Origin: Prevotella sp.
GTDB taxonomy: Bacteria; Bacteroidota; Bacteroidia; Bacteroidales; Bacteroidaceae
Assembly (NCBI GenBank): GCA_017428925.1
Contig: JAFRPY010000077.1
Coordinates: 1-64,000, forward strand
DNA: 64,000 nucleotides
Reading direction: 5' to 3'
A program made the position numbers and the translations under genes. Positions 2,847 to 62,780 of this stretch are shown one piece after another. Each line of letters begins with the position of its first letter. Positions within the stretch are counted from its first letter, which is position 1. The notes beneath the pieces are model-generated. The model searched no databases, had not been told where the DNA came from, and worked only from the letters and a program-made list of their open reading frames with translations.

Positions 2847-4328
2847 ATGGAAGAAAAGAACCAATATGTGCGACAGGTGGCGGAGCAGAAGTATGAGTTC
2901 GGTTTCACCACAGATGTACATACTGAAATCATAGAGAAGGGGCTGAACGAGGACATCGTCAGGCTCATCTCTGCCAAGAAGGGTGAGCCGGAATGGATGC
3001 TCGACTTCCGCCTGAAGGCGTTCCGCTACTGGCAGGAACAGACCGAACCCCGATGGGGACATGTACACGTGCCGCCCATCGACTATCAGGCCATCAGCTA
3101 CTATGCCGACCCGACCCCCTCCAAACCTCCCCGGGGGGAGGCTTCGGGGTACCCCCCCTCAGGGGATACGGAGGGGGGGCTTGACCCTAAGCTTGTCGAG
3201 ACTTTCGACAAATTGGGCATTCCCTTGGAAGAGCGGCTGGCCCTGAGCGGCAATACCGCCGTGGATGCCATCATGGACTCGGTGAGCGTGAAGACCACCT
3301 TTAAGGAGAAACTGCGCGAGAAGGGGGTGATTTTCTGTTCCATCGGCGATGCCATCAAGGAGCATCCCGACTTGGTGAGGCAGTATCTGGGTACGGTGGT
3401 TCCCTATCGTGACAATTTTTATGCTGCGTTGAATTCGGCTGTCTTTAGCGACGGTTCATTTGTGTATATTCCCAAGGGTGTGCGCTGTCCGATGGAACTG
3501 AGCAGTTATTTCCGCATCAATGCCCGTAACACGGGACAGTTCGAGCGCACGCTGATTATTGCCGACGATGATTCGTACGTCAGCTATTTGGAAGGCTGTA
3601 CGGCTCCGATGCGCGACGAGAACCAACTGCATGCGGCCATCGTGGAGATTGTGGTGATGGACCGTGCCGAAGTGAAATACTCCACTGTTCAGAACTGGTA
3701 TCCCGGCGATGAAAATGGTAAGGGTGGTGTGCTGAATCTTGTGACCAAGCGTGGCGACCTGCGCGGCGTTGATTCGAAACTCTCGTGGACCCAGGTGGAA
3801 ACGGGAAGTGCCATTACGTGGAAATATCCATCGTGTGTGTTGCGGGGCGACAATTCTGTGGCCGAATTCTATTCCGTTGCCGTGACCAATAACTATCAGG
3901 AGGCCGACACAGGCACGAAGATGATTCATATCGGGCGCAATACCAGGAGCACCATCATCTCGAAGGGCATATCCGCCGGACACTCGCAGAACTCCTACCG
4001 CGGACTGGTGCGTGCGGCATCGACTGCCGATAACGCTCGTAACTATTCGAGTTGCGACTCGCTGCTATTAGGCTCCGACTGCGGTGCCCACACTTTCCCC
4101 TATATGGATGTACATAACGATACGGCAATCTTCGAGCACGAGGCCACGACGAGTAAAATCAGCGAGGACCAGCTGTTCTATTGCAACCAGCGCGGCATCC
4201 CCACCGAGCAGGCTGTCGGCCTGATTGTCAACGGCTATGCCAAGGAAGTGTTGCAGAAACTGCCTATGGAGTTTGCTGTTGAGGCTCAGAAACTGTTGAG
4301 CGTCTCGTTGGAAGGTACGGTGGGGTGA
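2847..4328 (+). CDS. sufB: Fe-S cluster scaffold protein SufB
   Basis: 493 residues. SufB is the core of the SufBC2D scaffold that assembles iron-sulfur clusters in the cytoplasm. Family hallmarks include the N-terminal [11 protein letters not shown] segment, FRLKAFRYW, the beta-helix core ([20 protein letters not shown]) and the C-terminal [18 protein letters not shown] region. First gene of sufBCDS. The start is set at ATG 2847 because the upstream in-frame TTG lies in the promoter. Odd point: residues about 89-112 ([13 protein letters not shown] through GGL) are encoded by a GC-rich palindromic element (3113-3181) inserted in the linker before the conserved [11 protein letters not shown]; it keeps the frame open. 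A variable linker exists here in relatives, so the insertion is probably tolerated. Confidence 0.97.
3113..3181. repeat. GC-rich palindromic element inside sufB
   Basis: About 69 bp containing two nested inverted repeats (CCTCCCCGGGGGGAGG and CCCCCCCTCAGGGGATACGG with a following G run). It is in frame within sufB and adds roughly 23 residues rich in Pro, Gly and Ser. Similar elements recur at 5713, 7619, 22951, 37038, 60513, 61168, 61391, 62079 and 62747. Confidence 0.75.
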
Positions 4329-4349
4329 GTGAAGAATCGGGCTTAAAGT

Positions 4350-4413
4350 CGAAATGTCGTAATGACGAAATGTCGTAATAACGTAATGACGTAATAACGA
4401 AAAAACGAAATAA
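4350..4413. repeat. Octamer tandem array (8 x 8 bp) between sufB and sufC
   Basis: Eight consecutive 8-bp units: CGAAATGT, CGTAATGA, CGAAATGT, CGTAATAA, CGTAATGA, CGTAATAA, CGAAAAAA, CGAAATAA. It ends 6 bp before the sufC start codon, in the operon's only sizeable gap. The same octamer family occurs at 6570, 8909 and 47907. Confidence 0.8.
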
Positions 4414-4419
4414 AAAACA

Positions 4420-5166
4420 GTGTTAGAAGTCAAGAATTTGCACGCCAGGATTGGCGATAAGGAAATATTAAGGGGCATCGACCTCGTGATAAAGGATGGT
4501 GAGACGCATGCCATCATGGGACCTAACGGTTCGGGAAAATCGACGCTGAGTGCTGTTCTCGTGGGTAATCCGCTCTATGAGGTTACTGAGGGCGAGGCGT
4601 GGTTCAATGGCAAGAACCTGCTGGAGATGAAGCCAGAGGACCGTGCACACGAGGGACTGTTCCTCTCGTTTCAGTATCCTGTGGAAATTCCTGGTGTGTC
4701 GATGACCAACTTCATGAAGGCCGCCATCAATGCCAAGCGACAGTATGAAGGCAAGGAGCCGCTGAAGGCTGCCGACTTCCTCAAACTGATGCGCGAGAAG
4801 CGAAAGATTGTAGAACTGGATGCAAAACTCTCCAACCGTTCTGTAAACGAAGGCTTCAGCGGCGGAGAGAAGAAGCGGAACGAGATTTTCCAGATGGCCA
4901 TGCTCGAACCGAAACTGTCTATTCTCGACGAGACAGACTCTGGTCTTGACGTTGATGCCATGCGCATTGTGGCCGAGGGCGTGAACAAGCTGTCGACGCC
5001 TGAAACATCGTGCATTGTCATCACTCACTACGACCGTCTGTTAGAGATGATTCGTCCACAGTATGTGCACGTGCTCTATAAAGGACGGATAGTGAAGACA
5101 GGTGGCCCTGAACTTGCGCGTGAGATTCAGGAACATGGCTACGACTGGATAAAGGAGACGTTATAA
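4420..5166 (+). CDS. sufC: Fe-S assembly ATPase SufC
   Basis: 248 residues. ABC-type ATPase of the SufBCD scaffold; ATP binding and hydrolysis drive rearrangement of the complex during cluster assembly. Walker A GPNGSGKST (about residues 34-42), the SufC-type insert VEIPGVSMTNF, signature FSGGEKKRNE, and Walker B/D-loop LSILDETDSGLDVDA are all present. The start is GTG at 4420, immediately after the octamer array; the sequence begins MLEVKNLHARIGDKEILRGI as in other SufC proteins. Length matches the family. Co-transcribed with sufB and followed after 23 bp by sufD. Confidence 0.97.
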   Translation: MLEVKNLHARIGDKEILRGIDLVIKDGETHAIMGPNGSGKSTLSAVLVGNPLYEVTEGEAWFNGKNLLEMKPEDRAHEGLFLSFQYPVEIPGVSMTNFMKAAINAKRQYEGKEPLKAADFLKLMREKRKIVELDAKLSNRSVNEGFSGGEKKRNEIFQMAMLEPKLSILDETDSGLDVDAMRIVAEGVNKLSTPETSCIVITHYDRLLEMIRPQYVHVLYKGRIVKTGGPELAREIQEHGYDWIKETL

Positions 5167-5187
5167 TGTAGAATGTAGAGTGTAGGA
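5167..5187. repeat. Heptamer tandem array (3 x 7 bp) between sufC and sufD
   Basis: TGTAGAA, TGTAGAG, TGTAGGA fill almost the whole 23-bp gap between the two genes. Confidence 0.55.
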
Positions 5188-5189
5188 TT

Positions 5190-6551
5190 ATGAATACTTC
5201 TGTCCAGCAGTATATTGACTTGTATAGGCAAGCTGAAGGTATTATAAAGGCTCATTCTGCGGAGCCCATGAATGCTGTACGCGATGGGGCTTTCGCCGAC
5301 TTTCAGCGACTGGGTTTCCCCTCGAAGAAGGAGGAACGCTATAGGTATACAGATATGGCTGCACTCTTTGAGCCGGATTATGGCTTGAACCTGAACCGAT
5401 TTGAGATTCCTGTGGATCCCTATCAGGCCTTCCGATGTGATGTGCCAAATCTCAGCACGTCCCTCTATTTCGTGGTTAATGACAGTTTCTATAATAAAGC
5501 ACTCCCTCAGGCGCATTTGCCGGAAGGTGTAATCATCGGCTCGCTGCGGGAAAATGTGGATTCTTTCAATCAATATTATGGCCGATTGGCCAAGACCTCA
5601 GAAGATGCCATAACGGCCCTCAACACGATGCTGGTGCAAGATGGGCTGTTGGTCTATGTGCCTAAGAATGTGAAAGTCGACCGTGCTATCCAAGTCATCA
5701 ACATACTGAAAGCTCCCTCCCTTAAGGGAAGTGCAGGGGAGCAGGCTCCCTTTATGGTGAACCGTCGGGTGCTGATTGTCCTGGAAGAAGGTGCCGAGGC
5801 GAAGTTCCTGTTTTGTGATCATGCCGCCGACGACTGTCATTTCCTGACGACGCAAGTCATAGAGGCTTTTTTGGGCGATAATGCCAAACTGGATCTTTAT
5901 TGTATGGAGGAGACACATGCGAAAAACATACGCGTGAGCAATGTCTATATTGATCAGCAGCGGAACAGCCGGGTGAACCATAATGTCATTACCCTCCACA
6001 ATGGCATTACGCGCAACAAACTCAATCTGGAACTGAATGGGGAAGGTGCGGAATGCTCTTGCAATGGTTGTGTGATAGCCGATAAACAACAGCATGTGGA
6101 CAACAATACGCTGATTACGCACAAGGTTCCGCACTGTACTTCGAACCAGCTTTATAAATACGTGCTTGACGAGAAGGCCACAGGTGCCTTTGCCGGACGG
6201 GTGCTCGTGGAGCACGGGGCACAGGAAACTACATCGCAGATGACCAACCAGAATCTCTCTGCCTCGAAGTCGGCTCGAATGTACACCCAGCCCATGCTTG
6301 AAATCTATGCCGACGACGTGAAGTGTGCCCACGGATCCACCGTAGGCCAGCTCAACGATGCGGCACTGTTCTATATGCAGCAGCGAGGGATTGCGGTCAA
6401 GGAGGCTAAGCTCCTTTTGGAGTTTGCCTTTATCAACGAGGTCATCGACAAGATGGAACTCGCTCCTCTTCGCGACCGTCTCCACTATCTTGTGGAGCAG
6501 CGTTTCCGTGGGCAGCTCTCTAAGTGCGAGGGCTGCAAGCTTTGCCGGTGA
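5190..6551 (+). CDS. sufD: Fe-S assembly protein SufD
   Basis: 453 residues. Partner of SufB in the SufBC2D scaffold. SufD-family features are the N-terminal helical region with RYRYTDMAALF, the beta-helix core, KCAHGSTVGQLNDAALFYMQQRGI, and the C-terminal KCEGCKLCR tail. Residues about 175-187 (PSLKGSAGEQAPF) come from a small palindromic GC-rich insertion (5713-5750) just before the conserved strand RRVLIVLEEGAEA; the frame is kept. Third gene of the operon; the gap to sufS is filled by another octamer array. Confidence 0.96.
   Translation: MNTSVQQYIDLYRQAEGIIKAHSAEPMNAVRDGAFADFQRLGFPSKKEERYRYTDMAALFEPDYGLNLNRFEIPVDPYQAFRCDVPNLSTSLYFVVNDSFYNKALPQAHLPEGVIIGSLRENVDSFNQYYGRLAKTSEDAITALNTMLVQDGLLVYVPKNVKVDRAIQVINILKAPSLKGSAGEQAPFMVNRRVLIVLEEGAEAKFLFCDHAADDCHFLTTQVIEAFLGDNAKLDLYCMEETHAKNIRVSNVYIDQQRNSRVNHNVITLHNGITRNKLNLELNGEGAECSCNGCVIADKQQHVDNNTLITHKVPHCTSNQLYKYVLDEKATGAFAGRVLVEHGAQETTSQMTNQNLSASKSARMYTQPMLEIYADDVKCAHGSTVGQLNDAALFYMQQRGIAVKEAKLLLEFAFINEVIDKMELAPLRDRLHYLVEQRFRGQLSKCEGCKLCR
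5713..5750. repeat. GC-rich palindromic element inside sufD
   Basis: TCCCTCCCTTAAGGGAAGTG followed by CAGGGGAGCAGGCTCCC. The inverted repeat is CCCTTAAGGG with outer CTCC/GGGAG pairing. It is in frame and adds about 13 residues. Confidence 0.6.
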
Positions 6552-6569
6552 TTTTTTCGGTATTTTTTT

Positions 6570-6601
6570 CGTTATTACGTCATTACGTTATTACGTCAAT
6601 T
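6570..6601. repeat. Octamer tandem array (4 x 8 bp) between sufD and sufS
   Basis: CGTTATTA, CGTCATTA, CGTTATTA, CGTCAATT, with an exact 8-bp period. It is the complement-oriented form of the array before sufC. It ends at the base before the sufS ATG (6602). Confidence 0.8.
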
Positions 6602-7843
6602 ATGTACGATATCAACAAGGTGCGGGATGATTTCCCGATATTGAGCCGCGAGGTGTATGGCAAGCCGCTCATCTATCTCGACAATGGAGCGACGACTCAG
6701 AAACCGCGCCAGGTGGTGGAGGCGCTCATGGATGAATACTACAATGTGAATGCCAACGTGCATCGCGGCGTCCATTTCCTGTCTCAACGTGCTACCGATT
6801 TGCATGAAGAGGCTCGCAAGAAGGTGCGCCAGTTTATTAATGCCCGTAAAGTAGAGGAGATTGTTTTTACCCGTGGCACTACCGAGAGCATTAACCTGGT
6901 GGCGCAGACGTTCTGTGAATCGCAGATGAAGGCAGGCGACGAGGTGATTATCTCGGCAATGGAACATCATTCTAACATTGTTCCCTGGCAACTGCAGGCT
7001 GAAAAACGAGGCATCGTGCTGAAGGTGATACCGATGACCGATGACGGACAACTGAGACTTGACGAATATGAACAGTTGTTCTCCGAGCGAACCCGGTTAG
7101 TGAGTTGTACTCAGGTGAGCAATGTTCTGGGGACGGTGAATCCCGTGAAGGAGATGATAGCCATTGCTCATCGTCACGGTGTGCCTTTCATGGTGGATGG
7201 TGCGCAGAGTGCACCTCATCTGAAGATAGACGTGCAGGATATGGAATGTGACTTTTTCGCCCTGAGTGGACACAAGATGTACGGCCCTACGGGTGTCGGT
7301 GTGCTTTACGGAAAGGAGGAATGGCTGGACAAGCTGCCGCCGTATCAGGGTGGGGGAGAGATGATTGCCACCGTGAGTTTCGAGAAGACTACCTTCGAGC
7401 GTCCACCACTGAAGTTTGAGGCGGGTACGCCCGACTATGTGGCCACAACGGGGCTGGCCCGTGCCATCGACTACCTGAATGCCTTAGGCATGGAGAACAT
7501 CATGGCCTATGAACAGGAACTGACGCGCTATGCCATGGAACAGTTAGGACAAATAGAAGGAATGGTGATATATGGCCCCACTACAAACCACGATGCCGTA
7601 ATCAGTTTTAATGTGGCTTCCCCCCATGGGGGGAGTGAAGGGGGGCTTATTCACCACATGGACATGGGGACGCTGCTCGACCGTCTGGGAATTGCCGTGC
7701 GTACAGGTCATCATTGCGCCCAGCCGCTGATGGATCGTCTTGGCATCCTTGGAACCGTCAGGGCTTCTTTTGCCTTGTATAACACGAAGGACGAGGTTGA
7801 CCATCTTGTGGCTGGCATCCGTCGCGTCAGTCAGATGTTCTAA
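6602..7843 (+). CDS. sufS: Cysteine desulfurase SufS
   Basis: 413 residues. PLP-dependent enzyme that takes sulfur from L-cysteine for cluster assembly. Visible features: N-terminal YLDNGATTQKP, SAMEHHSNIVPWQ, the PLP-lysine motif ALSGHKMYGPTG, and the loop with the catalytic cysteine RTGHHCAQPLM. An upstream in-frame extension is mostly octamer-repeat sequence and is not counted, so the start is ATG 6602. Residues about 340-349 (SPHGGSEGGL) are encoded by a palindromic insertion (7619-7648) between VISFNVA and IHHMDMGTLLDRLGIAVRTGHH, close to the active-site loop. The partner SufE is not in this operon. The 3' end overlaps the opposite-strand gene at 7840 by 4 bp. Confidence 0.97.
   Translation: MYDINKVRDDFPILSREVYGKPLIYLDNGATTQKPRQVVEALMDEYYNVNANVHRGVHFLSQRATDLHEEARKKVRQFINARKVEEIVFTRGTTESINLVAQTFCESQMKAGDEVIISAMEHHSNIVPWQLQAEKRGIVLKVIPMTDDGQLRLDEYEQLFSERTRLVSCTQVSNVLGTVNPVKEMIAIAHRHGVPFMVDGAQSAPHLKIDVQDMECDFFALSGHKMYGPTGVGVLYGKEEWLDKLPPYQGGGEMIATVSFEKTTFERPPLKFEAGTPDYVATTGLARAIDYLNALGMENIMAYEQELTRYAMEQLGQIEGMVIYGPTTNHDAVISFNVASPHGGSEGGLIHHMDMGTLLDRLGIAVRTGHHCAQPLMDRLGILGTVRASFALYNTKDEVDHLVAGIRRVSQMF
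7619..7648. repeat. GC-rich palindromic element inside sufS
   Basis: CCCCCCATGGGGGG is a perfect palindrome, followed by AGTGAAGGGGGGC. It is in frame, adds about 10 residues, and is the third such insertion in one operon. Confidence 0.65.
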
Positions 7844-8103
7844 AACAGATGCCGGTAGCGTCTTAATGCTAAGTAGAACCAAAGACAGCATGCGGCGCGG
7901 AGCAGCAGACTGTAGTCGGCAGGCATGACGCCGGCGAAAAAGGCTGTTTGTACTTCGATGAGCGACCATGTCTGGCGCTTGTTGATGTCGCGTTCCAACA
8001 CTGACGAATAGTATTGGCGCAGCCACTCCATGGGGCGGTTTGCGACTTTCTTCACATTTTCCACGAGCATCCATGTGCCCTGCAAGGTGATTTGCTTTTC
8101 CAT
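7840..8103 (-). CDS. Small conserved hypothetical protein
   Basis: 87 residues with no signal peptide. The sequence (GTWMLVENVKKVANRPMEWLRQ, then LLLRAACCLWFYLALRRYRHLF) has a Trp-rich N-terminal part and a hydrophobic stretch near the C terminus with basic residues after it. That could be one membrane helix or a buried helix. It converges on sufS with a 4-bp overlap and diverges from rnhB. I recognise it only as the sort of short uncharacterised protein common in Bacteroidales; no function can be given. The complete frame and absence of an alternative gene here support it as real. Confidence 0.55.
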   Translation of the reverse strand: MEKQITLQGTWMLVENVKKVANRPMEWLRQYYSSVLERDINKRQTWSLIEVQTAFFAGVMPADYSLLLRAACCLWFYLALRRYRHLF

Positions 8104-8117
8104 ATTGCTATATTTCT

Positions 8118-8153
8118 TTTAAACTTTAACCTATAACCTTTAAACTTTTAACC
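8118..8153. repeat. Heptamer tandem array between the 87-aa gene and rnhB
   Basis: TTTAAAC, TTTAACC, TATAACC, TTTAAAC, TTTTAACC: five units of 7-8 bp, starting 15 bp upstream of the 87-aa gene's start codon. Confidence 0.6.
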
Positions 8154-14422: not shown

Positions 14423-14464
14423 AAAAATCCCCTTTCTCCCCACGCATGGAGGGGAAGAAGGGGA
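14423..14464 (-). terminator. GC hairpin with T run after the 14483 lipoprotein gene
   Basis: Read on the minus strand: TTCCCC...CTCCATGCGTGGGGAGAAAGGGGA followed by TTTTT. The hairpin plus T run lies directly after the stop at 14483 and before the C10 protease start, so it probably causes partial termination or attenuation within the operon, giving less protease mRNA than SusC/SusD mRNA. Confidence 0.6.
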
Positions 14465-14482
14465 ATTTGATATTAGAAATGG

Positions 14483-16108
14483 TTACTTTCTTACAGACTT
14501 CTTCAAATTACGGCCAGCCTTGTGAATCTTCATTTTTTTAGCCTTGGCCTTAGCTTTAGCCTTACTTGCTGCATCCTTTACAGGAGAAATCAGAGATACT
14601 TTTGCAACATCAACCCATCCCTTATCATCAGGATCAGCGACGTTGATAACATAAATACCCCACAGTCCATCACCTGTCAACGTTCCATCTGGATTGATGG
14701 TGAATGTAGCAGCGTCAGTACCGTCAGCTGTATAGAACAACACCTGATAGGTTCCTTCTTCATCAGTCATTGTGCCTAATACCTGATCGTCAGGAATGAT
14801 AAGTTTTCCGCTGCTAAGGTCATAGGTTCCCTCAATCACAGCGTTTTCTAAGAACAGTCCTTTAATCAGCAGACCTTTTTCCTTTTCAGCATTCTTCTCA
14901 ATCGTGATACCACCCATGCTTGAAGCTGAGCCGTCCTCCGACCAGTAAGAAATGTAAAGAATGCTAAAGTTACCCAGAATCATGTCGAGCGTGGGGGCGA
15001 AGAACAGCCAGCTGACTTCCTCAGCCATGAATTCCTCGTTAGGATTGCCGCAGACGTCGTAGATGGTTCCTTCGGCCAAAGCTACCTTGATGACGTCGCC
15101 AGCGTCTGGCTTCACAGGCAGGGTGAAGGTCAGCGTCTTGCCGCTAACGCTCCACTGTTTGGCGGTCAGGTTGTGGATGGTGGTCTTCTTTTCGTTGATG
15201 TAAATCACCTTCACGGCACCGTCATCCACGGCCTCGTCGTTGCGATAGATGTTGAACGGCATCTCTATCTCACCCTTGAATTCCTCGAAGTTGGCAACTA
15301 ATGCCCCGTTCTCAGGGCTGATGATGTTTTCATCGCTAATCTCGAACGGAACCAGCGTGTTGCGGTTATAGATTCCAACGAATCTTCCCGTGTTCATGTT
15401 CAGATAGCTATTGAAGGCAGAACACTTGTTTCCGTAACCGTCAACAAATGCACCTGCTTCCCATGAAAGGGTAAGGAATGCTCCGGCAGGAGTGTTGGGT
15501 GCCACAACGGTGAGAACGTCGTCTTCTATAGAAATCTCGAGTTCTTCCTCGGGGACAGTTACGGGATTGGTGATGTCCCATTCCTGATAGTAGGTGACGA
15601 TAATCTTGCCGTCGCCGCGAGAAACGTCCTCGCTGAACTGCACTGTGAAAGACTTGGCATCGGCATCGGCATCTGCGTCTACGGGACCGGGAGCACCGAC
15701 ATCAGAAGTCTTGATGCTGCTGTTGGTCACAGGACCAGTGATACCCTTGTCGTTGCAAGCCACGGCATACACCTGATAGGTGGTGTTGGGCATTGCTGTG
15801 GTAATGGGCAGTGTGAGCGTGGGGCTTTCCGACGTTTTTACTACAGCATTTCCGTATCCGCCTTTAAGCAAGGTTGCTGCGTCAACATCTTCTGCCACGT
15901 CGTTAGCATCGATGATGAATGCATAGTAGGTTGCTCCCGCCGCAGGCGTCAGCGTTACGTTGAACGCTGAGTCTGTGGGGGCTACTGCTTGAAGATCAAT
16001 CGAGATGGAAGGTCCATCGCCATAGTTCTCGGTTACGGGGTCGTCCCATGTAGTACAACTGGTCAGCACGAGAACCGACATCAATAAGCAATATAATACT
16101 TTCTTCAT
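14483..16108 (-). CDS. Surface lipoprotein of the SusCD operon (SusE/F position)
   Basis: 541 residues. Lipoprotein signal MKKVLYCLLMSVLVLTSC. Residues about 30-130 look like a fibronectin/Ig-type domain (TPAAGATYYAFIIDANDV ... NTTYQVYAVACNDKGITG), then an Ala/Asp repeat (VDADADADA), two Ig-like bacterial segments (FTVQFSEDVSRGDGKI; WSVSGKTLTFTLPVKPDAGD) and a C-terminal beta-rich domain. The tail is unusually basic (KAKAKAKAKKMKIHKAGRN). An in-frame TTG upstream (16120) is less likely than ATG 16108. Its position after SusD and a Calx-beta lipoprotein suggests a substrate-binding surface protein; the substrate is not evident. Confidence 0.75.
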   Translation of the reverse strand: MKKVLYCLLMSVLVLTSCTTWDDPVTENYGDGPSISIDLQAVAPTDSAFNVTLTPAAGATYYAFIIDANDVAEDVDAATLLKGGYGNAVVKTSESPTLTLPITTAMPNTTYQVYAVACNDKGITGPVTNSSIKTSDVGAPGPVDADADADAKSFTVQFSEDVSRGDGKIIVTYYQEWDITNPVTVPEEELEISIEDDVLTVVAPNTPAGAFLTLSWEAGAFVDGYGNKCSAFNSYLNMNTGRFVGIYNRNTLVPFEISDENIISPENGALVANFEEFKGEIEMPFNIYRNDEAVDDGAVKVIYINEKKTTIHNLTAKQWSVSGKTLTFTLPVKPDAGDVIKVALAEGTIYDVCGNPNEEFMAEEVSWLFFAPTLDMILGNFSILYISYWSEDGSASSMGGITIEKNAEKEKGLLIKGLFLENAVIEGTYDLSSGKLIIPDDQVLGTMTDEEGTYQVLFYTADGTDAATFTINPDGTLTGDGLWGIYVINVADPDDKGWVDVAKVSLISPVKDAASKAKAKAKAKKMKIHKAGRNLKKSVRK

Positions 16109-18462: not shown

Positions 18463-21447
18463 TTAGAAAGACAAATCCAGACCGAGTACGAAACTCTTGG
18501 TGACAGGGTATACACCGTAGCCCATACCGTCGACGCCGCGCTCAGGATCCCAGAAGTTCACATCGTGGAAGGTGAAAACGTTCAGGCCGCTGGCATAGAC
18601 GCGTGCACTGCTGAAGCCGATCTTGCGGAGCAGGCTGGCGGGAACATTGTAGGACAGGGTGATGTCCTTGATACGGAAGTAGTCGCCCTTCTCAATGAAG
18701 CGGTTCGACGAGAAGCTGTTGGAGTTGGTAGTATTACCGGCGATTGGCTTCGGGTTGCAGCCAGTGTCGCCCGGTTTCTTCCAGTAGTTCAGCAGGCCTT
18801 TCTGCTGGTTCATTGTCATCTGGGCACCGTCACTGGTGAAGTAGCGGTTCTCAATGATGAGCACTTTGTTGCCGCCCTTGAATTCGCCGACAACGCTCAG
18901 TGAAAGGTCTTTCCATGTCAGTGTGGTGTGTACACCACCGGTGTAGGTGGGTTCAGGACTGCCGCTCTTCACGTAGGCAGCATCATTGTAGTCGTTGGTC
19001 AGTTCGCCGTCTTCGGTACGCCAGAGGGCCTCACCGTTCACGGGGTTCACGCCAACATAGTCTTTCAGCCAGAATGTGAACAGCTTTTCGCCCACGATGT
19101 GCTTCAGACGAGAGTCTTCAGAATAGTTCATCTCTTCGTCGCCAGCCAGTTCGAGGATCTTCGACTTGTTGTGTGCAATGTTGAATCCGGCATTCCACTT
19201 CCAGTCGCCCTGGTCGATGATGTCGGCGTCGAACTGGAACTCAATACCCGTGTTGCGCATTGAACCGATGTTGGTATAGGCAGAGTTGAAACCAGTGGTT
19301 GATGACTGTGCCTTGCTGAGCAGCATGTCGGTGGTCTTACGGTTGTAGACATCGATGCTACCCGAGAAGCGCTTCAGGAAGCGGAAGTCGAGACCGAGGT
19401 TCCAAGTGTAGTTGCGCTCCCATGACAGGTCGTCGTTGGCAGGAGTAGAGGGACGCAGACCGGTAACACCGTTGTAGGCAGAAGAGGTATATGTACCGAA
19501 CTGCTGGTAATGACCGATGTTGTTGTTACCGTTTACACCATAGCTGGCGCGCAGCTTCAAGGTGTTCAGCCAAGTAAGGTTCTGCATGAACTTCTCGTTG
19601 TGGATGTTCCAAGAAGCACCCACCGACCAGAAGGTACCCCACTGGTTGTTCTTACCGAACAGTGAGCTACCGTCGGCACGGATACTGGCCTGCAGGAAGT
19701 AGCGAGAAGCGTAGTTGTAGTCAAGGATACCGAACCATGACATCATCGTGTCGGTATAGGTGTCGTATTCAATGTTGTAGCTGTCAGTGCTACCTGAGTT
19801 GACATAAGGAATGTCGGGATTCAGGTTGGTTGCATACTGATACTGCAGCCAGTAGTACTTGTGGAAGGCTTCCTGACCAGCCAGCACGCGAACGCTGTGG
19901 TCGCCATACTGATCTTGGAAGGTAGCTGTGTTAGAGGTAGTCAGCACACGGTACTGATACTCTTCGGTCTGCAGCACGGGATAACCGCTCTCGTAGTCGT
20001 TAGATTCGAGTGACCAGTAGCGGCGGTCCTCGTTGAAGCTCATTTCAGCAGCATTGTTGGTCTTCAGTGTCAGCTGCTTGATGGGTTTCCACTCCAGGTA
20101 GATGCTACCGTTGAACTTGTACTTCTTCGACCACTGGTCGTCGTACTGTGCAGTAGCGCGCGGGTTGGTGTTGGAGTTCTCTGAAATTCTAACATAGTGT
20201 GATCCGTCTGCGTTGTAGGCAGGTGTCCAAGGCAGGATGGTCATTCCGGCGAAAGCGGGGTTAGAATAGTAGAGGCTCTGCATGGGAACGTCCTCACCAT
20301 AGAGGTAACCCACGTTCACGCGTACGCCGGTGGTCAGATACTTGTTGATCTGGTGGTCGGCGTTGACACGGGCCTGGATACGCTTGAAGTCGATTCCGTA
20401 GTAAACACCCTCATTGTCGTGATAAGAAACAGAGTTATAGTACTTTGTGCGGGCAGAACCACCGCTCATGGTGAGTTCATACTCCTGCAGATGACCTGTA
20501 CGGCTCAGGTGGTCCATCCAGTTGGTCTGCGGGCGAGTGAGCAGCTCGTAGGGACGATAGTAGTTGGCACCTGCTGTGGGATCATCGGGATCCTTTCCGG
20601 CATTCCTGACAGCCTGGCGCTGGTATTCCAGCAGCTCTTGTCCGGTCATCATGCCGAAGTCGTTATCGTTGGCCAGTGTGGAAACACCATACTTGGCGCG
20701 AACGGTGAACTTGCTCTTGCCTTCTTTACCACTCTTGGTGGTGATCAGGATCACACCGTTGGCAGCACGGCTACCGTAAACTGATGCTGCTGCAGCATCC
20801 TTCAGCACGGTAATGTTGTCGATGTCGTCGGGGTTGATGGCGGCAATCGGGTTACTGGTATTGGTCATCTGTGAGTCGTCACCGCTCATGATGGGAATAC
20901 CGTCGACCACGTACAACGGGTTGTTGCCTGCGTTAATTGAACTGGTACCACGGATGCGGATACTTGAACTAGAACCCGGCTGACCAGAACTCTGGGTCAC
21001 CATCACACCGGCCATCTTACCGCTCAGCATCTTGTCGAGCGAAGTGGCAGGGATGTCGGCAATGTCTTTTGCCTTCACGCTGGTGATAGAACCCGTCTTG
21101 GCCTCGCGGCGCTGCGTTCCGTAACCCACCACGATCACCTCGTCGAGGGCTTCGGCATCGCTCGTGAGTTCGATGCGCATTTTTGTACCTTTAGCGGCAA
21201 CTTCAATGGGCTCCATGCCCACGTAGGTCACTCGAATGGTGCTTTTGCCTTCGGGAATCGAAAGCTCGAACTTACCATTCACGTCGGTAACGGTTCCCTG
21301 GTTGGTGCCTGGCACTTGCACTGTGGCACCTATCACGGGTTGGCCGTCTTCATGAGATACTACGGTTCCGCTAACTTTCGTTTGAGCCATGGCCATTCCA
21401 ACAAACAGGAATAGCGAGGCTAAAATCAGAGTTACTCTTTTTTCCAT
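18463..21447 (-). CDS. SusC/RagA-family TonB-dependent transporter
   Basis: 994 residues. Signal peptide (about 1-21), carboxypeptidase-regulatory-like domain (about 24-95: VSGTVVSHEDGQPVIGATVQ), TonB-box-like EALDEVIVVGYGTQRR, plug domain with the SusC signature GSSSSIRIRGTSSINAGNNP and LYVVDGIPI, then a large beta-barrel ending in KSFVLGLDLSF with C-terminal Phe. It pumps a ligand across the outer membrane using TonB energy, with the SusD lid encoded next. A complete promoter precedes it. First gene of an operon of seven genes reading toward 9846. Confidence 0.96.
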   Translation of the reverse strand: MEKRVTLILASLFLFVGMAMAQTKVSGTVVSHEDGQPVIGATVQVPGTNQGTVTDVNGKFELSIPEGKSTIRVTYVGMEPIEVAAKGTKMRIELTSDAEALDEVIVVGYGTQRREAKTGSITSVKAKDIADIPATSLDKMLSGKMAGVMVTQSSGQPGSSSSIRIRGTSSINAGNNPLYVVDGIPIMSGDDSQMTNTSNPIAAINPDDIDNITVLKDAAAASVYGSRAANGVILITTKSGKEGKSKFTVRAKYGVSTLANDNDFGMMTGQELLEYQRQAVRNAGKDPDDPTAGANYYRPYELLTRPQTNWMDHLSRTGHLQEYELTMSGGSARTKYYNSVSYHDNEGVYYGIDFKRIQARVNADHQINKYLTTGVRVNVGYLYGEDVPMQSLYYSNPAFAGMTILPWTPAYNADGSHYVRISENSNTNPRATAQYDDQWSKKYKFNGSIYLEWKPIKQLTLKTNNAAEMSFNEDRRYWSLESNDYESGYPVLQTEEYQYRVLTTSNTATFQDQYGDHSVRVLAGQEAFHKYYWLQYQYATNLNPDIPYVNSGSTDSYNIEYDTYTDTMMSWFGILDYNYASRYFLQASIRADGSSLFGKNNQWGTFWSVGASWNIHNEKFMQNLTWLNTLKLRASYGVNGNNNIGHYQQFGTYTSSAYNGVTGLRPSTPANDDLSWERNYTWNLGLDFRFLKRFSGSIDVYNRKTTDMLLSKAQSSTTGFNSAYTNIGSMRNTGIEFQFDADIIDQGDWKWNAGFNIAHNKSKILELAGDEEMNYSEDSRLKHIVGEKLFTFWLKDYVGVNPVNGEALWRTEDGELTNDYNDAAYVKSGSPEPTYTGGVHTTLTWKDLSLSVVGEFKGGNKVLIIENRYFTSDGAQMTMNQQKGLLNYWKKPGDTGCNPKPIAGNTTNSNSFSSNRFIEKGDYFRIKDITLSYNVPASLLRKIGFSSARVYASGLNVFTFHDVNFWDPERGVDGMGYGVYPVTKSFVLGLDLSF

Positions 21448-21544: not shown

Positions 21545-21892
21545 CTTTTTTGCAAAAAACTCGTATTTTACCCCCACATTCCTTCATTTTTTCTAATTTT
21601 TCTACCTTTTTGTTAACGTTTCAGGATAAAAAGTGTTAACGGAACACAACTGTTTTTGGACATTTTTATTCGCAATAAATTCATTATTCCCCTTATACAT
21701 TATTATAATAATAGTATCTCTGCGATTTTTAATTCAACACAGAGACACAAAAGTAATTTAGTCTAAATTACTTACCAATTTAGTCTAATTTACTTAGTAA
21801 TTTAGTCTAAATTACTTTGCTAATCATAATGATTTGATTTTCGGTTCATACGGATGACTGTAATTGCTGTCAATATGTTATGTTTTGTGGCG
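21545..21892. other. Intergenic region between the M43 protease gene and the susC promoter
   Basis: 348 bp, very AT-rich, with no open frame of note. It contains the 22-bp dyad array at 21751-21820 and a T-rich tract. No regulator gene lies next to it, so control of the susC operon probably acts from elsewhere. Confidence 0.6.
21751..21820. repeat. 22-bp dyad array, three copies
   Basis: Units start at 21755, 21777 and 21799 with an exact 22-bp period. Each has a near-palindromic 15-mer AATTTAGTCTAAATT and a 7-bp spacer (ACTTACC, ACTTAGT, ACTTTGC). The middle unit is slightly degenerate. With flanking bases the first unit forms a 23-bp palindrome. The same array with a central A instead of T occurs at 62580-62671. 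Confidence 0.85.
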
Positions 21893-23044
21893 CTATTGCT
21901 GCCAGGGCGACGGCGGACAGTTGGAGAGACGGGGACGGAACAGGGTGGGGGAGGCATCGATGGACGAACTGCTGCGGGTTCCGGATTCCTCAAGCCTGAC
22001 TCCGGGCATCAGCGGACAATAGTTCAGCACGTGGCGCGTGCGGTTGCGCTGCTGTTTCGAAAACGTGCTGCCCAGCGTATAGATGTAGTCCATGATGTTG
22101 TCGGCGTAGTATTCTTCGCCCGTAGTGCATTCCGTGCGGGCCGGGAGGTCGTAGAAACTGGTGATGAAAAGGCGTTCCTGGGGGGTGAGGTTTTCCAGAA
22201 AATCGCTGACGGTCTTTGTGTAGGCGTTGTAGTCGCACGACTTGGTGTCGCTGCAGTAGTCGGTATCGTCGCAGCCGTTCTCAGAAAACGAGTGGAGCAG
22301 TCCGAGGTAGTGGCCCAGCTCGTGGGCCAAAGTCTGCCAGATGCAATCGGGGTTGACATATCCCCATTTCTGGTTTTGGTCGACGAACCTGTTGTTCAGG
22401 CATATTCCCCAAGGATTGGAAAACCGTTTCACGCGGTCGAAAAACGAGGGTATCGTGTCTTCCAGTCCCTCCAGTGGATGCAATGTGGTCATAACGGGCA
22501 TCACCGAGACGCCTTTAGTAATCTGCTCTTCCTCGTCGGAAAACTTGAACAGGAAGATGTTGATGAATTTTTTCAGGTTCTGGGTGTATTCGCCGTAGGA
22601 TGAGCTTTTGTAGAGGAAGTCCTTGTAGTTGTAGTCGTCGAAGTTGACTTCGTGGCGCAGCACGCCCGGCTCGCCCATGGTTTTCCCATCTTCGTCGGCA
22701 GTGGCCATCTTGAAGGTGATGTTCATGCCGTTACGCTTATAGAGTGCGTTCACGCTGTCGATAATCAGGCTCAGCCGTGCCTGACTGGGATATTGCAGCG
22801 CATCATTCTTGTCTTTGTAGAGCACATGGAAGACGACGGGCAACTCGTATTCGTAGTCGTCGCTGATGGAAGTTGCCGTCTCGTTGGTAGTGCTACTGCT
22901 GGTAGATACTTCGTCGTTGTTGCCGCAAGCGGTTAGGATGAGGAAAAGAAAGGCCCACCCCCACCCCTCCCAAAGGGAGGGGAGATTTAACTGCCAAAGG
23001 GAGGGGAGATTTCGTTTGCGAATGATTGGATTTTTTCTGTTCAT
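21893..23044 (-). CDS. M43-type (pappalysin/cytophagalysin-like) lipoprotein zinc protease
   Basis: 383 residues from ATG 23044. Lipobox LTAC with Cys40. The zinc motif HELGHYLGLLH (first His about 241) and the downstream NIMDYIYTLG Met-turn are typical of M43 metzincins, as are paired cysteines (CDDTDYCSDTKSC) after the motif. Earlier in-frame codons up to 23080 are less likely as start. Odd point: residues about 12-31, which form the front of the signal peptide, are encoded by a palindromic element (22951-23012) with two copies of the peptide NLPSLW. The hydrophobic core after it, AFLFLILTAC, still makes a lipoprotein signal. The C-terminal tail (RSSSSIDASPTLFRPRL) looks low-complexity. Probably a surface or periplasmic protease. 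Confidence 0.88.
   Translation of the reverse strand: MNRKNPIIRKRNLPSLWQLNLPSLWEGWGWAFLFLILTACGNNDEVSTSSSTTNETATSISDDYEYELPVVFHVLYKDKNDALQYPSQARLSLIIDSVNALYKRNGMNITFKMATADEDGKTMGEPGVLRHEVNFDDYNYKDFLYKSSSYGEYTQNLKKFINIFLFKFSDEEEQITKGVSVMPVMTTLHPLEGLEDTIPSFFDRVKRFSNPWGICLNNRFVDQNQKWGYVNPDCIWQTLAHELGHYLGLLHSFSENGCDDTDYCSDTKSCDYNAYTKTVSDFLENLTPQERLFITSFYDLPARTECTTGEEYYADNIMDYIYTLGSTFSKQQRNRTRHVLNYCPLMPGVRLEESGTRSSSSIDASPTLFRPRLSNCPPSPWQQ
22951..23012. repeat. GC-rich palindromic element inside the protease signal peptide
   Basis: On the minus strand it contains two copies of CTCCCCTCCCTTTGG, then GGAGGGGTGGGGGTGGGCC. It includes the palindrome CCCTCCCTTTGGGAGGG and a G-rich tail. It lies in frame in the signal-peptide region of the M43 protease. 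Confidence 0.75.
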
Positions 23045-37037: not shown

Positions 37038-37073
37038 CTCCCCTCCTTAAAAGGAGGGGCCAGGGGTGGTTGA
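37038..37073. repeat. GC-rich palindromic element, intergenic copy
   Basis: CTCCCCTCCTTAAAAGGAGG then GGCCAGGGGTGGTTG. The inverted repeat CCCCTCCTT/AAGGAGGGG plus a G-rich tail has the same design as the copies inside genes. Confidence 0.75.
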
Positions 37074-41495: not shown

Positions 41496-41627
41496 ATGAA
41501 AACTGCTGCCGTAGCTGTAATAAAAAGATAATAATCAAACCGGTACGATTATATCAGAACCCTGACTGTATAAATAAAGGGGAGGAAACCGAAAATCCAA
41601 AGAGTAGGCATTTAAAAATATAAAGTT

Positions 41628-58282: not shown

Positions 58283-58290
58283 CCTGCACA

Positions 58291-58322
58291 TTTGGCAGTT
58301 TCGAAAATAATCACTAATTTCG
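58291..58322 (+). promoter_or_regulatory. Promoter of the phosphoethanolamine transferase-like gene
   Basis: TTTG 58291-58294, a 20-nt spacer, TAATTTCG 58315-58322 (one mismatch to TAnnTTTG). Confidence 0.55.
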
Positions 58323-58344
58323 CCCGCAAAATCTGACACACGCA

Positions 58345-60201: not shown

Positions 60202-60247
60202 GAAATGGAGAAAATGAGAGAATGAGAAATGGAGAAAATGAGAAATG
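60184..60247. repeat. Octamer tandem array (8 x 8 bp) across the gene junction
   Basis: GGGGAAAT, GGGAAAAT, GAGAAATG, GAGAAAAT, GAGAGAAT, GAGAAATG, GAGAAAAT, GAGAAATG. It covers the stop codon of the transferase (60199-60201) and both possible start codons of the next gene (60229, 60238). Confidence 0.75.
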
Positions 60248-61383
60248 GGGAGTTTTTGAGCCGCACTGAATCGGCGACGCTGCGCGGCATCGCCATTCTC
60301 GGCATTATTCTTCACAACTACTGTCATTTCCTGAATTTTGCCGTTAAGGAGAACGAGTATAAATTCGATGCAGCGCGCCCCATGCAGTTTCTCGACCGCC
60401 TTGTATCCCTCGACAGCGACCTGTTCATCCATTTCTTTTCCTTCTTTGGACACTATGGTGTCCCCATCTTCCTTTTCATCAGCGGATATGGATTGGTGAA
60501 GAAATATGAAGCCTACCCCCACCCCCTCCCCAAGGGAGGGGAGTCTGTCAGCGCAAAAGAAGCCTTCCCTTCGGGGAGGTTTGGAGGGGCTTTCATTAAA
60601 TACCATTTCCTCAAGCTGTTCCGCCTGATGATTATCGGATATCTGGTGTTCATCGGTGTTTATTTGCTTCGCCATTCCGATGGTGCCCAGGTATATTCGT
60701 GGGACCATGTGCTCACGCAGCTCACCATGACCATCAACTTCCTCTATTTCGATCCCGACCACATCATCAAGCCCGGTCCCTATTGGTTTTTCGGGTTGAT
60801 GCTTCAGCTGTATGTGCTCTACATTCTGGTCATTCACCGTTGGCGGAACCATTGGCTGCTGTTGGCATTGGCGTTGGGTTCAGTCGTGCTGGAAGGATGC
60901 TTTGTCGATAGTCAGGATTGGCTCAACTACGTGCGCTACAATTTCGTCGGCGGACTGTTGCCTTTCTGTATGGGTGTGTGGGTAGCGAGGAAAGAGGAGA
61001 GAGGAGAGAGGAGCGAGGAGAGTAATCCCCTGGCTCTTACCGCTTCACTTTTGGTTTCCGCTCTTTTCGTCCTTTTCGGCAGTCTGAACTTTTTTACATG
61101 GCTGTTCGTTCCCGTTTTTGTGGTAACGGGTGCCATTGCCACAATAAAATTAATGTCTCATCTCCGTAACTCCCTCCCTTTGGGAGGGTTAGGGGTGGGC
61201 CCCTGGTTCGGCAGCATATCCGCGGCCCTCTTTGTGATGCATCCCGTGATGCGTGAACTGATTATCGGCCATTACCGCAAGGTCGACATTTATGGTGGCA
61301 TCGCCATCTACCTGCTCTCGTGCGTGGCCCTTGCCATGCTACTAAAATGGATTTTGCAATTTATCCCCAAACCCAAATTATAG
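60229..61383 (+). CDS. Acyltransferase-3-family membrane protein with palindromic insertions
   Basis: 384 residues with about ten membrane helices. Acyltransferase_3 features: TLRGIAILGIILHNYCHFLN with the catalytic-type His, and GVPIFLFISGYGLVKKY. It probably O-acylates a surface glycan or lipid. Three pieces are repeat-encoded: residues about 95-122 (a palindromic element, 60513-60594, containing ESVSAKEAFPSGRFGG), about 254-264 (RKEERGERSEE, from a GAGAGGA heptamer array) and about 314-326 (SLPLGGLGVGPW, element at 61168). All keep the frame. The start codon lies in the octamer array; ATG 60229 or 60238. Confidence 0.82.
   Translation: MEKMRNGEFLSRTESATLRGIAILGIILHNYCHFLNFAVKENEYKFDAARPMQFLDRLVSLDSDLFIHFFSFFGHYGVPIFLFISGYGLVKKYEAYPHPLPKGGESVSAKEAFPSGRFGGAFIKYHFLKLFRLMIIGYLVFIGVYLLRHSDGAQVYSWDHVLTQLTMTINFLYFDPDHIIKPGPYWFFGLMLQLYVLYILVIHRWRNHWLLLALALGSVVLEGCFVDSQDWLNYVRYNFVGGLLPFCMGVWVARKEERGERSEESNPLALTASLLVSALFVLFGSLNFFTWLFVPVFVVTGAIATIKLMSHLRNSLPLGGLGVGPWFGSISAALFVMHPVMRELIIGHYRKVDIYGGIAIYLLSCVALAMLLKWILQFIPKPKL
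60513..60594. repeat. 82-bp palindromic element inside the first acyltransferase
   Basis: Hairpin CCCTCCCCAAGGGAGGGG, a connector TCTGTCAGCGCAAAAGAAGC, and a second hairpin CTTCCCTTCGGGGAGG with TTTGGAGGGGC. The same connector occurs in reverse orientation in the element at 62079-62225. Confidence 0.85.
60985..61019. repeat. GAGAGGA heptamer array inside the first acyltransferase
   Basis: GCGAGGA, AAGAGGA, GAGAGGA, GAGAGGA, GCGAGGA; encodes a charged Glu/Arg loop between membrane helices. Confidence 0.65.
61168..61206. repeat. GC-rich palindromic element in the first acyltransferase, second copy
   Basis: CTCCCTCCCTTTGGGAGGG then TTAGGGGTGGGCC. The G-rich half has four G runs (GGG A GGG TTA GGGG T GGG), a G-quadruplex pattern. 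Confidence 0.8.
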
Positions 61384-61390
61384 CCCGCTC

Positions 61391-61430
61391 TCCCAACTCC
61401 CTCCCTATAGGGAGGGCAGGGGTGGGTCTC
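61391..61430. repeat. GC-rich palindromic element in the gap between the two acyltransferase genes
   Basis: CTCCCAACTCCCTCCCTATA then GGGAGGGCAGGGGTGGG. It fills most of the 53-bp gap and ends 6 bp before the next ATG, so it forms the leader of that gene. Confidence 0.8.
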
Positions 61431-61436
61431 CTTTTT

Positions 61437-62585
61437 ATGAACTGGAACGACCTCAGCCGATACCGCGCACCACTGATGGGTTTTGCAATGCTCATCGTCA
61501 TGCTTTTCCATGTACCCCTGTCGCGCAACGATTTGTTCTACGGACTGATGCGTTGCGGCAACAACGGAGTCGACATGTTCCTTTTCCTCAGTGGAATCGG
61601 ACTGTGGTATTCGTGGACGAAGAAAATCCCCCTTAGGGGGAATGATTCTTCACTCTTCACTCTTCACTCTTCACTTATTCTAAATTTCTACTACCGCCGC
61701 TTCCTGCGCCTATATCCCGCATGGCTCATCATTGCCAGTCTTTATTATATCCCTCAGTACTGGCCCAATGGTGGCGGCTATAGCCCCAATCTGTTCCATC
61801 TCGTGGCCAATATTTTGGTGGGGTGGAGTTTTTGGCGCATCGACGACCTGACGTTTTGGTTCGTTCCGGCCATCATCGTGCTCTATCTTATTGCCCCCTT
61901 CTATATGATGTTCATCCAGCGCAACCGCGTATGGCGCTGGCTTCCGTTAGTAATGATTTTGTGGTACCTGTTGGTGCGCGACTGGCCTCCGCTATGGGGT
62001 GCCGTGGGCCATGTGGAAATCTTCTGGAGCCGCATCCCCGTCTTCCTGCTGGGCATTAATGCTGGAGAGTGGGTAAAAACCCACCCCCTAACCCCCTCAG
62101 GGGAAACCCACCCCCTAACCCCCTCCCGAAGGGATGGGGAAGGCCCATCCAAACCTTCCCAAAGAGAAGGCTTCTTTTGCGCTGACAGGCTCCCCTCCCT
62201 TGGGGAGGGGTTGGGGGTGGGCCTTATTTTCCTCCTTTCCATCTGGTACTGCGTTTATATTGAGGGCCATCGCCACGGTGCCTTTCCCCCGGCTGCCGAG
62301 CGCATGGTATATATTCCCTTGGCCGTCAGCACGATGTTTTTGATGTGTCAGGTCTTCCGGCATACACCCTCATGGCTGCTCCGTGCTTTCACCTTCGTGG
62401 GAGGCATTTCGCTTGAAATCTATCTCGTACATGTCCAGTTTGTGCTGGTCTATATCAAGTCCTACCGACTGGGCTATTGGCCCACCTTCCTGCTGCTACT
62501 CGCCATCAGCATTCCCCTGGCATGGATGCTCAGTAGGCTTGTTGGATGGCTTGTCAATAAGTTCCTGCCAAGAGGCGAAAAGTAA
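61437..62585 (+). CDS. Acyltransferase-3-family membrane protein with a large palindromic insertion
   Basis: 382 residues from ATG 61437; a longer frame would run through the palindromic element and overlap the previous gene. About ten membrane helices. YRAPLMGFAMLIVMLFHVPL (catalytic-type His) and NGVDMFLFLSGIGLWYSW are family blocks. Two repeat-encoded insertions are visible: residues about 64-80 (IPLRGNDSSLFTLHSSL, from a small palindrome and a TTCACTC array) and about 215-263 (a 147-bp composite element, including HPLTPSGE, HPLTPSRRDGEG and CADRLPSLGEGLGVG). Both are in loops and keep the frame. Tandem paralogue of the preceding gene. Confidence 0.82.
   Translation: MNWNDLSRYRAPLMGFAMLIVMLFHVPLSRNDLFYGLMRCGNNGVDMFLFLSGIGLWYSWTKKIPLRGNDSSLFTLHSSLILNFYYRRFLRLYPAWLIIASLYYIPQYWPNGGGYSPNLFHLVANILVGWSFWRIDDLTFWFVPAIIVLYLIAPFYMMFIQRNRVWRWLPLVMILWYLLVRDWPPLWGAVGHVEIFWSRIPVFLLGINAGEWVKTHPLTPSGETHPLTPSRRDGEGPSKPSQREGFFCADRLPSLGEGLGVGLIFLLSIWYCVYIEGHRHGAFPPAAERMVYIPLAVSTMFLMCQVFRHTPSWLLRAFTFVGGISLEIYLVHVQFVLVYIKSYRLGYWPTFLLLLAISIPLAWMLSRLVGWLVNKFLPRGEK
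61627..61676. repeat. Small palindrome and TTCACTC heptamer array inside the second acyltransferase
   Basis: ATCCCCCTTAGGGGGAAT (palindrome CCCCCTTAGGGGG) is followed at 61649-61676 by TTCACTC x3 and TTCACTT, each 7 bp. Confidence 0.7.
62079..62225. repeat. 147-bp composite palindromic element inside the second acyltransferase
   Basis: Two copies of CCCACCCCCTAACCCCCTC, then CCCGAAGGGATGGGG, and a half that is the reverse complement of the 60513 element (GCTTCTTTTGCGCTGACAGG between two GC hairpins), ending in GGGGAGGGG TT GGGGG T GGG. It adds about 49 in-frame residues. Confidence 0.85.
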
Positions 62586-62671
62586 TTTAGACTAAATTAC
62601 TTACCAATTTAGACTAAATTACTTTGCAATTTAGACTAAATTACTTTGCAATTTAGACTAAATTACTTTTT
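62580..62671. repeat. 22-bp dyad array, four copies
   Basis: Units start at 62584, 62606, 62628 and 62650 with an exact 22-bp period: AATTTAGACTAAATT followed by ACTTACC, ACTTTGC, ACTTTGC and ACTTTTT. It begins at the stop codon of the acyltransferase gene. Same design as 21751-21820, with central A instead of T. Confidence 0.88.
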
Positions 62672-62746
62672 CGTTCTGGATGATTTGTTTTTCCGCTGAT
62701 GGACAAACATCCAAAATAATCTCACAAAAACAGCGAATGCGAATAA

Positions 62747-62780
62747 CTCCCCTCCCCTTGGGAGGGGTAGGGGTGGGCCT
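62747..62780. repeat. GC-rich palindromic element, intergenic copy
   Basis: CTCCCCTCCCCTTGGGAGGG and GTAGGGGTGGGCC; the G-rich half (GGG A GGGG TA GGGG T GGG) is a G-quadruplex pattern. Context before and after resembles the copy at 37038. Confidence 0.8.

Follow-up and report, generated by a model that had tools for sequence, protein, structure and literature searches.

Repeats of predicted intrastrand-triplex architecture, some of them in frame in conserved genes, in a Prevotella genome

Several classes of short repeats resemble the family described here. BoxC/PIT/TM_ECO elements consist of a C-rich arm, a loop of 3-6 nt, a G-rich arm, a 3-nt loop and a second G-rich tract. According to the available text of PMC4666352, they are strictly intergenic in E. 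coli MG1655, adopt a triplex in vitro and occur in many copies, with numbers differing strongly among relatives and no transposase found. GTAG/CGTC REPs and the REPINs of RAYT transposases are short hairpins and inverted dimers (available parts of PMC3733652 and PMC6006769). In other phyla some REP copies are located within genes, palindromes inside genes have been described for further families, and Rickettsia palindromic elements, of which RPE-4 and RPE-6 are classed under CGTC repeats, insert into unrelated conserved genes that stay open (available parts of PMC3733652 and work cited there). Here we analyze a repeat family in the first 64,000 nucleotides of contig JAFRPY010000077.1 from a Prevotella sp., hereafter the window. 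A preliminary description had reported it as CCCTCCC..GGGAGGG palindromes. The stem is real, yet it proves to be only part of a three-tract unit of the BoxC/PIT type, copies of which are found in frame in conserved genes.

The host is a gut Prevotella-like bacterium represented by a 3.56-Mb draft genome (85% complete). The nearest relatives of its SufB protein are in Prevotella and Prevotellaceae assemblies, several from the rumen, with a top protein identity of 95%. A 426-kb sample of this genome was used, which consists mostly of contigs pre-listed as stem-bearing, so that no density was derived from it. Two relatives served for comparison: G016, a single contig of 3.17 Mb sampled as 20 stretches totalling 400 kb, and the complete genome G141. 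Hairpins were collected from the window, from 55 sufB loci (L018-L072) and from 58 further stretches (L127-L184). The 290 entries read correspond to 145 distinct purine-arm hairpins, as a palindromic stem is read once on each strand.

Read in order, the unit is made up of a pyrimidine arm, a purine arm separated from it by a short loop, and, after a spacer of about 3 nt, a further purine/T tract which mirrors the purine arm. It was evident that a second G-rich tract, most often GGGGTGGG, lies 2-3 nt away on one side of the stem. With the better side taken and a match required at 6 or more of 8 positions, a count made without a control, GGGGTGGG accompanies 38 of 38 distinct stems in the host and 32 of 32 in G016. 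However, the tract is not a fixed tag but the mirror image of the right arm, and it changes with that arm, as in the arm-spacer-tract combinations GGGAGGGG-ttg-GGGGTGGG, GGGGAGG-ttt-GGAGGGG, GGAGAGGGG-ttg-GGGGTGAGG, AAGGAGGGG-cca-GGGGTGGTT and GGGGGAG-cag-GAGGGGG. A mirror tract, with G opposite G and T or A opposite A, is present in 130 of the 145 hairpins (score of at least 0.85, taken as the highest value over two orientations and five spacers). It is perfect in 99, and the remaining 15 hairpins fall below the threshold. The spacer is 3 nt in 98 of the 130 and 1, 2, 4 or 5 nt in the rest.

Arm and tract covary. When 33 arm classes, which are related by descent, were aligned to their tracts at spacer 3, with orientation set by G content and one majority sequence per class, 186 of 242 positions (77%) fitted purine-motif triads. 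Permuting the tracts among the classes gave a mean of 0.62 and a maximum of 0.71, and none of 5000 permutations reached the observed 0.77; at spacers 1, 2, 4 and 5 compatibility was 0.54-0.61. Where the arm has an A, the tract has A or T in 34 of 54 positions (permuted mean 0.30, maximum 0.50). From its sequence, the arrangement of three tracts in the order pyrimidine-purine-purine, the third mirror-matched to the purine arm, is that predicted for the intrastrand-triplex (BoxC/PIT/TM) architecture. The covariation is comparative evidence that three-strand compatibility, rather than the hairpin or G-richness alone, would be what is maintained across sub-families.

The Prevotella repeats share with BoxC/PIT/TM_ECO the succession of tracts, the many copies in strongly differing numbers and the lack of a known transposase. 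They differ in their arms, which are mostly 7-8 nt and of many sequences as opposed to the 9-nt arms of TM_ECO, and in being found within genes, whereas TM_ECO is always intergenic in MG1655 (available text of PMC4666352). The exact TM_ECO pattern CCCTCNCCCN3-6GGGNGAGGGN3GGGNGAGGG occurs in 4 of 394 loci, all four from a viral collection, and with up to one mismatch per tract it has a single match in 111 Prevotella-side sources. The main text of PMC4666352 contains no mention of Bacteroid or Prevotella. Among the papers listed in searches of open-licence literature, PMC4666352, PMC3733652 and PMC6006769 alone bore on these repeats, as judged by title. The hairpins and inverted dimers recall REPs and REPINs; unlike these, the Prevotella element has a mirror tract 3' of the hairpin, shows a GT[AG]G tag in no more than 7 of 130 copies and has no RAYT firmly linked to it. 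The CGTC tag is absent from all 130, which also sets the family apart from RPE-4 and RPE-6. The likeness to Rickettsia elements that had been pointed out earlier holds for behavior, namely insertion into conserved genes that stay open, and is an analogy only. Overall, sequence comparison places the family in the intrastrand-triplex repeat class, as a putative variant from Bacteroidota marked by a three-tract rule and in-frame gene insertion.

The copies in the window were located with a finder that searches for the complete unit, from the C/T arm through the loop, A/G arm and spacer to the mirror tract, and allows at most one mismatch each in stem and tract. It returned 17 matches, compared with 1, 2, 1, 0 and 0 in five codon-block shuffles and 1 in the reversed sequence. 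Fourteen were kept: 14437-14465 was dropped as likely chance, and 61391-61415 and 62120-62142 as overlapping better matches. The exact pattern CCCTCCCN{0,20}GGGAGGG has six matches (22965, 60524, 61172, 61399, 62193 and 62750) and none in 100 dinucleotide shuffles. Of the ten palindromes first reported, all ten places indeed have G/C-rich inverted repeats, some of them degenerate; an exact stem is present at or near six. Pfam matches bore out the gene identities given for the carriers. The elements and the genes that carry them are as follows.

2847-4328, + strand: sufB with an in-frame dimer insertion at about residues 89-111 (SUFBD_core match)
3116-3141, - strand: left half of the sufB dimer, CCTCCCC/GGGGAGG, TTT, mirror GGAGGGG (finder)
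3151-3176, + strand: right half of the sufB dimer, degenerate (finder)
5190-6551, + strand: sufD with a degenerate in-frame element (SufBD_N and core match)
5716-5738, + strand: degenerate element in sufD (profile 11.9 bits; finder, one mismatch in stem and in tract)
6602-7843, + strand: sufS with an in-frame element (Aminotran_5 match)
7619-7645, + strand: sufS element, TCCCCCC/GGGGGGA, GTGA, mirror AGGGGGG (finder)
22954-22982, - strand: element near the start of an M43 peptidase open reading frame (finder; Peptidase_M43 match)
37040-37071, + strand: intergenic element, CCCCTCCTT/AAGGAGGGG, CCA, mirror GGGGTGGTT (finder)
60229-61383, + strand: acyltransferase 1 with two in-frame insertions (Acyl_transf_3 match)
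60512-60541, - strand: half of dimer copy 1, in acyltransferase 1 (finder)
60563-60589, + strand: other half of dimer copy 1, one stem mismatch (finder)
61172-61199, + strand: single element in acyltransferase 1 (exact stem; finder)
61320-62585, + strand: acyltransferase 2 with three in-frame elements, read from a GTG, true start uncertain (Acyl_transf_3 match)
61399-61427, + strand: element between the acyltransferase genes or at the start of the second (exact stem; finder)
62107-62139, - strand: element in acyltransferase 2, one stem mismatch (finder)
62144-62170, - strand: half of dimer copy 2, one stem mismatch (finder)
62192-62221, + strand: other half of dimer copy 2 (finder)
62749-62777, + strand: intergenic element (exact stem; finder)

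Some copies thus look different from how they were first reported. The sufB copy is a dimer of another sub-family, the stem in sufS is not the CCCTCCC type, and the copy in sufD is degenerate. The palindrome placed at 60513 is one half of a dimer, and the place at 62079 holds three elements (62107, 62144 and 62192), with an apparent further degenerate one, missed by the finder, at 62080-62105. As for the copy at 61391, the intergenic position that had been stated applies only if the ATG at 61437 is the start of acyltransferase 2; another ATG in the same frame, at 61347, precedes the element. Elements were also seen at or in apparent lipoprotein signal peptides, both at 22954-22982 (NLPSLWEGWGWAFLFLILTAC) and in L151 at 14985-15025 (CFILPSLGGVGGGFTSC); the LTAC that follows the former is presumably lipobox-like. 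At the Rfam gathering threshold nothing was found at any element of the window. The sole Rfam match lies elsewhere, at 41579-41610, and is the cis-regulatory DUF805b RNA (RF02914, 39.8 bits) upstream of a reading frame. A second, AT-rich repeat is a double palindrome, AAGTAATTTAGNCTAAATTACTT, with its two halves 44 bp apart, and occurs at 21750-21818 and 62579-62647 of the window and near 14178 and 18744 of L138.

Beyond the window, a strict stem with a loop of 0-8 nt has 149 matches in the draft genome, compared with 1 for the reversed pattern. A profile built from the host copies matches 68 times at 10 bits or more in the 426-kb sample (strands unmerged) and not once in the reversed sequence. 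In a second round at the same threshold, there were 54 merged matches in the host sample and 57 in G016, with one each in the reversed controls. The stem together with the GGGGTGGG tract is present in 165 of 299 genomes of the genus, at 0 to 209 matches each and with one reversed-control match overall. Among sampled Bacteroidia genomes from beyond the genus, 21 of 292 match (22 of 295 when three genus members are included, of which the host itself matches). The proposal of a Bacteroidales repeat family with a shared consensus, in frame in conserved genes, is supported. As a separate observation, the 52 strict stems of G016 that were listed, of 53 counted, all lie outside an arc at 1.17-2.80 Mb that makes up roughly half of the chromosome. 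Six 20-kb samples from this arc (L159-L164), free of N, have no element, and dnaA is inside it at 2.587 Mb. The copies of G141 are spread more widely.

Elements occur singly or in pairs. When those less than 180 nt apart in the hairpin-set loci are merged, 98 blocks result, of which 71 are single elements, 24 are pairs and 3 are larger groups. In 20 of the 24 pairs the mirror tracts point outward, while two pairs are --, one is ++ and one is +-; an earlier profile with a 250-bp limit gave 21 of 33 close pairs outward, 8 --, 3 ++ and 1 +-. The opposite was found in the motif-bearing loci of a viral collection (83 of 120; L275-L357), where close pairs are 12 +-, 3 -+ and 1 ++ and the tracts mostly face inward; these loci derive mostly from other hosts, given their median GC of 0.67. 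Whole dimers recur. The 80-bp dimer in acyltransferase 1 is found again in acyltransferase 2, 91% identical and in the opposite orientation, and in L137 a 67-bp dimer in a UbiA-type gene recurs, 94% identical, in the adjacent HAD-type gene. All of these are in open frames. In G141, a dimer with the same two loops and a spacing of 79-85 bp was counted by eye at 8 sites from 0.58 to 2.90 Mb. L151 contains a tandem array of four elements at 66-bp spacing (19329-19543).

How do such repeats stand in relation to genes? With a block called coding from the hexamer-score signal on both of its sides, and not from proteomics, 18 of 47 blocks of the host sample lie in frame within genes, compared with 72% of 2000 random placements. 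In G016 (14 of the 20 stretches) it is 1 of 33, compared with 55% of random placements. Copies are therefore under-represented in genes, yet far better tolerated in the host genome than in G016. Their stop-poor composition helps, as it can be read through in most frames: no stop interrupts any of the six frames in 25 of 58 host elements, and another 12 are open in five. A further 12 carrier open reading frames of the host were scanned with Pfam and all but one had a match. They include pectinesterase, saccharopine dehydrogenase-type, helicase, radical SAM, glycosyltransferase, UbiA, HAD, amylase/pullulanase-type, topoisomerase, sulfatase and RsmF-type proteins. In G016 (L155, 7528-8580), an element lies between the DUF559 and guanylate kinase domains of one open frame, possibly a read-through joining two genes.

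The clearest cases are the three suf genes of the window, whose products carry extra in-frame segments relative to orthologs from L018-L072 (not every locus reaches sufD and sufS). The SufB segment is common to L018 and L070, and the other 53 of 55 loci have no segment or a different one (by eye); the SufB site in L036 is occupied by a different element. The SufD site is occupied in two other species as well, by a dimer of a different sub-family in L026 and by a different single element in L041. In SufS, the 8-residue insertion is lacking in the best solved relative (one alignment). As most of the orthologs examined are without them, the segments are not ancestral. The acyltransferase 1 loops are less telling. 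At the first place 12 of 13 usable orthologs are shorter and L247 is longer, and at the second 6 of 13 are clearly shorter and 7 about as long (both by eye); with loop length varying among orthologs, the case for insertion is weaker there.

Taking these lines together, we consider it probable (roughly 0.6) that the elements are interspersed, non-autonomous repeats of intrastrand-triplex architecture that spread through single-stranded DNA with the help of an enzyme acting in trans. Starting from what is observed, namely the anatomy, the covariation, the dimers, the recurrence of whole dimers and the in-frame copies that orthologs lack, we infer that the triplex-type fold is the recognition target of the spreading machinery. 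A unit exposed as a single strand would fold as a hairpin with the third strand in its groove, forming G.G-C, T.A-T and A.A-T triads. It would be processed by an enzyme in trans, most likely of the HUH/Y1 type, and copies would spread as single units and as dimers with outward mirror tracts. Insertions of a multiple of three nucleotides would survive in permissive protein loops as Pro/Gly/Ser/Glu-rich segments. Target-site duplication is not above control (mean longest match 3.20 and 3.11, respectively, with approximate borders), as expected for single-strand transposition. A broader possibility, offered tentatively, is that the triple-helix-compatible fold is the signal of an undescribed single-stranded DNA mobility system which inserts peptides into housekeeping proteins in some Prevotella; arm and tract would then covary on account of an enzyme or replication fork that acts only on the three-stranded fold.

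Several results weigh against this interpretation. For TM_ECO, the available text of PMC4666352 reports the triplex in vitro and no stable triplex in vivo. The descent of the arm classes means that their covariation is strong but not fully independent, and that the permutation overstates independence. Relatives are too divergent, and no exact filled/empty nucleotide pair was found among them; no strand bias relative to GC skew was apparent by eye. The search for a mobilizing enzyme, which covered Y1, RAYT-like (class A1) and long (class A2) proteins, tied none to the element, and the RAYT-like transposase in trans that the preliminary description had envisaged could not be linked to it. In the host, which has two Y1 genes, an element lies about 440 bp past the 3' end of one, a distance unremarkable at the density of the sample, and none lies within 4 kb of the other, which makes both weak candidates. 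Among 60 Y1 loci with flanks of about 1.5 kb, an element is near the gene in 6 and on both sides in 2 (L191 and L193). By profile, 4 of 20 Y1 loci have an element, none closer than about 0.8 kb, the one at about 440 bp in the host being missed.

Class A2 is a long Y1/HUH-type protein with a weak PF01797 match and a conserved C-terminal part (loci L215-L242). It matches in 173 of 299 genomes of the genus and, at E below 1e-15, in 167 of the 298 other than the host. At least 20 copies of the element are found in 56 of the 167 genomes with A2 as compared with 8 of the 131 without, statistics that ignore kinship. Nevertheless, A2 was rejected as the mobilizer: the host genome lacks it, an element is near only 2 of 30 A2 loci, and in 14 of 28 different hairpins recur beside the gene, among them CAAGCGG..CCGCTTG and ACGTCAG..CTGACGT.

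We hold with moderate confidence that mobility through single-stranded DNA in trans is the likelier mechanism, the main rival being enzyme-free spread linked to replication. Here the stable fold would stall replication, and template switching or end-joining repair would copy the element, mainly to nearby places. The clusters, the L151 array, the near-identical dimers in neighboring genes and the failure to find an enzyme all suit such a process, and TM_ECO has been tied to local instability (available text of PMC4666352). The recurrence of the same dimer loops and spacing at distant sites of G141 does not, and we regard enzyme-free copying as rather unlikely.

Less probable is that these are ordinary REP/REPIN elements, mobilized by a RAYT (TnpA-REP) that recognizes a hairpin with a GT[AG]G foot. 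Their size, dimers and patchy distribution agree with this, the element near one host Y1 gene adds slightly to its likelihood, and RAYT subclass 2.4, which the A1 proteins resemble in their NHIH and YIxxNP motifs, is abundant in Bacteroidetes (available text of PMC6006769). Class A1 is present in 24 of 299 genomes of the genus (E below 1e-20), and these are richer in elements (median 15.5 vs 1, p 0.001). The strongest hint of a RAYT link comes from L191 and L193, which look alike and in which an A1 reading frame with a stop is flanked on both sides by elements, feet outward; it speaks against our preferred account. However, of 130 elements only 5 on the foot strand and 2 on the other have GT[AG]G in the 10 nt 5' of the hairpin, and 55 of the 65 genomes with at least 20 copies are without A1 (drafts included). 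A1 was not retained as the mobilizer, since several of its loci bear GTAG repeats of their own. Indeed, the RAYT-like genes in L188, L189, L190, L192 and L196 are accompanied by GTAG-tagged hairpins of differing sequence, e.g., GTAGGGGCAGACCCCCGTGTCTGCCC, which represent separate REP families.

That the dimers are miniature inverted-repeat transposable elements of a cut-and-paste (DDE) transposase, with the G-rich tracts as terminal inverted repeats, is quite improbable: dimer ends are inverted, as in CAGACCCACCCCC / GGGGGTGGGTCTG of L135, but the target-site duplications that this would leave do not exceed control and 71 of the 98 blocks are single units. No more credit is due to the idea that the sequence is kept for a G-quadruplex instead of a triplex. 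Short-loop quadruplex motifs do coincide with the elements, always on the tract (foot) strand, in 36 of 40 cases in the 426 kb of the host and 21 of 22 in the 400 kb of G016, with 2 and 1, respectively, in shuffled controls. Yet only 36 of 54 host elements and 21 of 57 G016 elements have such a motif, and sub-families such as AGGGGAGG.CA.GGAGGGGT (L026) keep the mirror without four GGG runs. A quadruplex, moreover, does not require the covariation of arm and tract that a triplex predicts. Finally, the notion that the coding copies are ancestral linkers conserved at the protein level can be set aside as highly improbable, for the SufB segment common to L018 and L070 and the less clear acyltransferase places are outweighed by the absence of the segments from most of the SufB, SufD and SufS orthologs examined, by the different elements that L026 and L041 have at the SufD site, and by the same repeats in intergenic positions elsewhere.

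The reason that BoxC/PIT triplex repeats exist and their mode of spread are open questions, to which the sub-families of Prevotella bring comparative evidence. With 0 to 209 pattern matches per species, the genus is a good place to search for an enzyme. Repeats that sit in frame in genes for Fe-S assembly, topoisomerase III-type and rRNA methyltransferase-type proteins, in turn, amount to a natural experiment in protein insertion.

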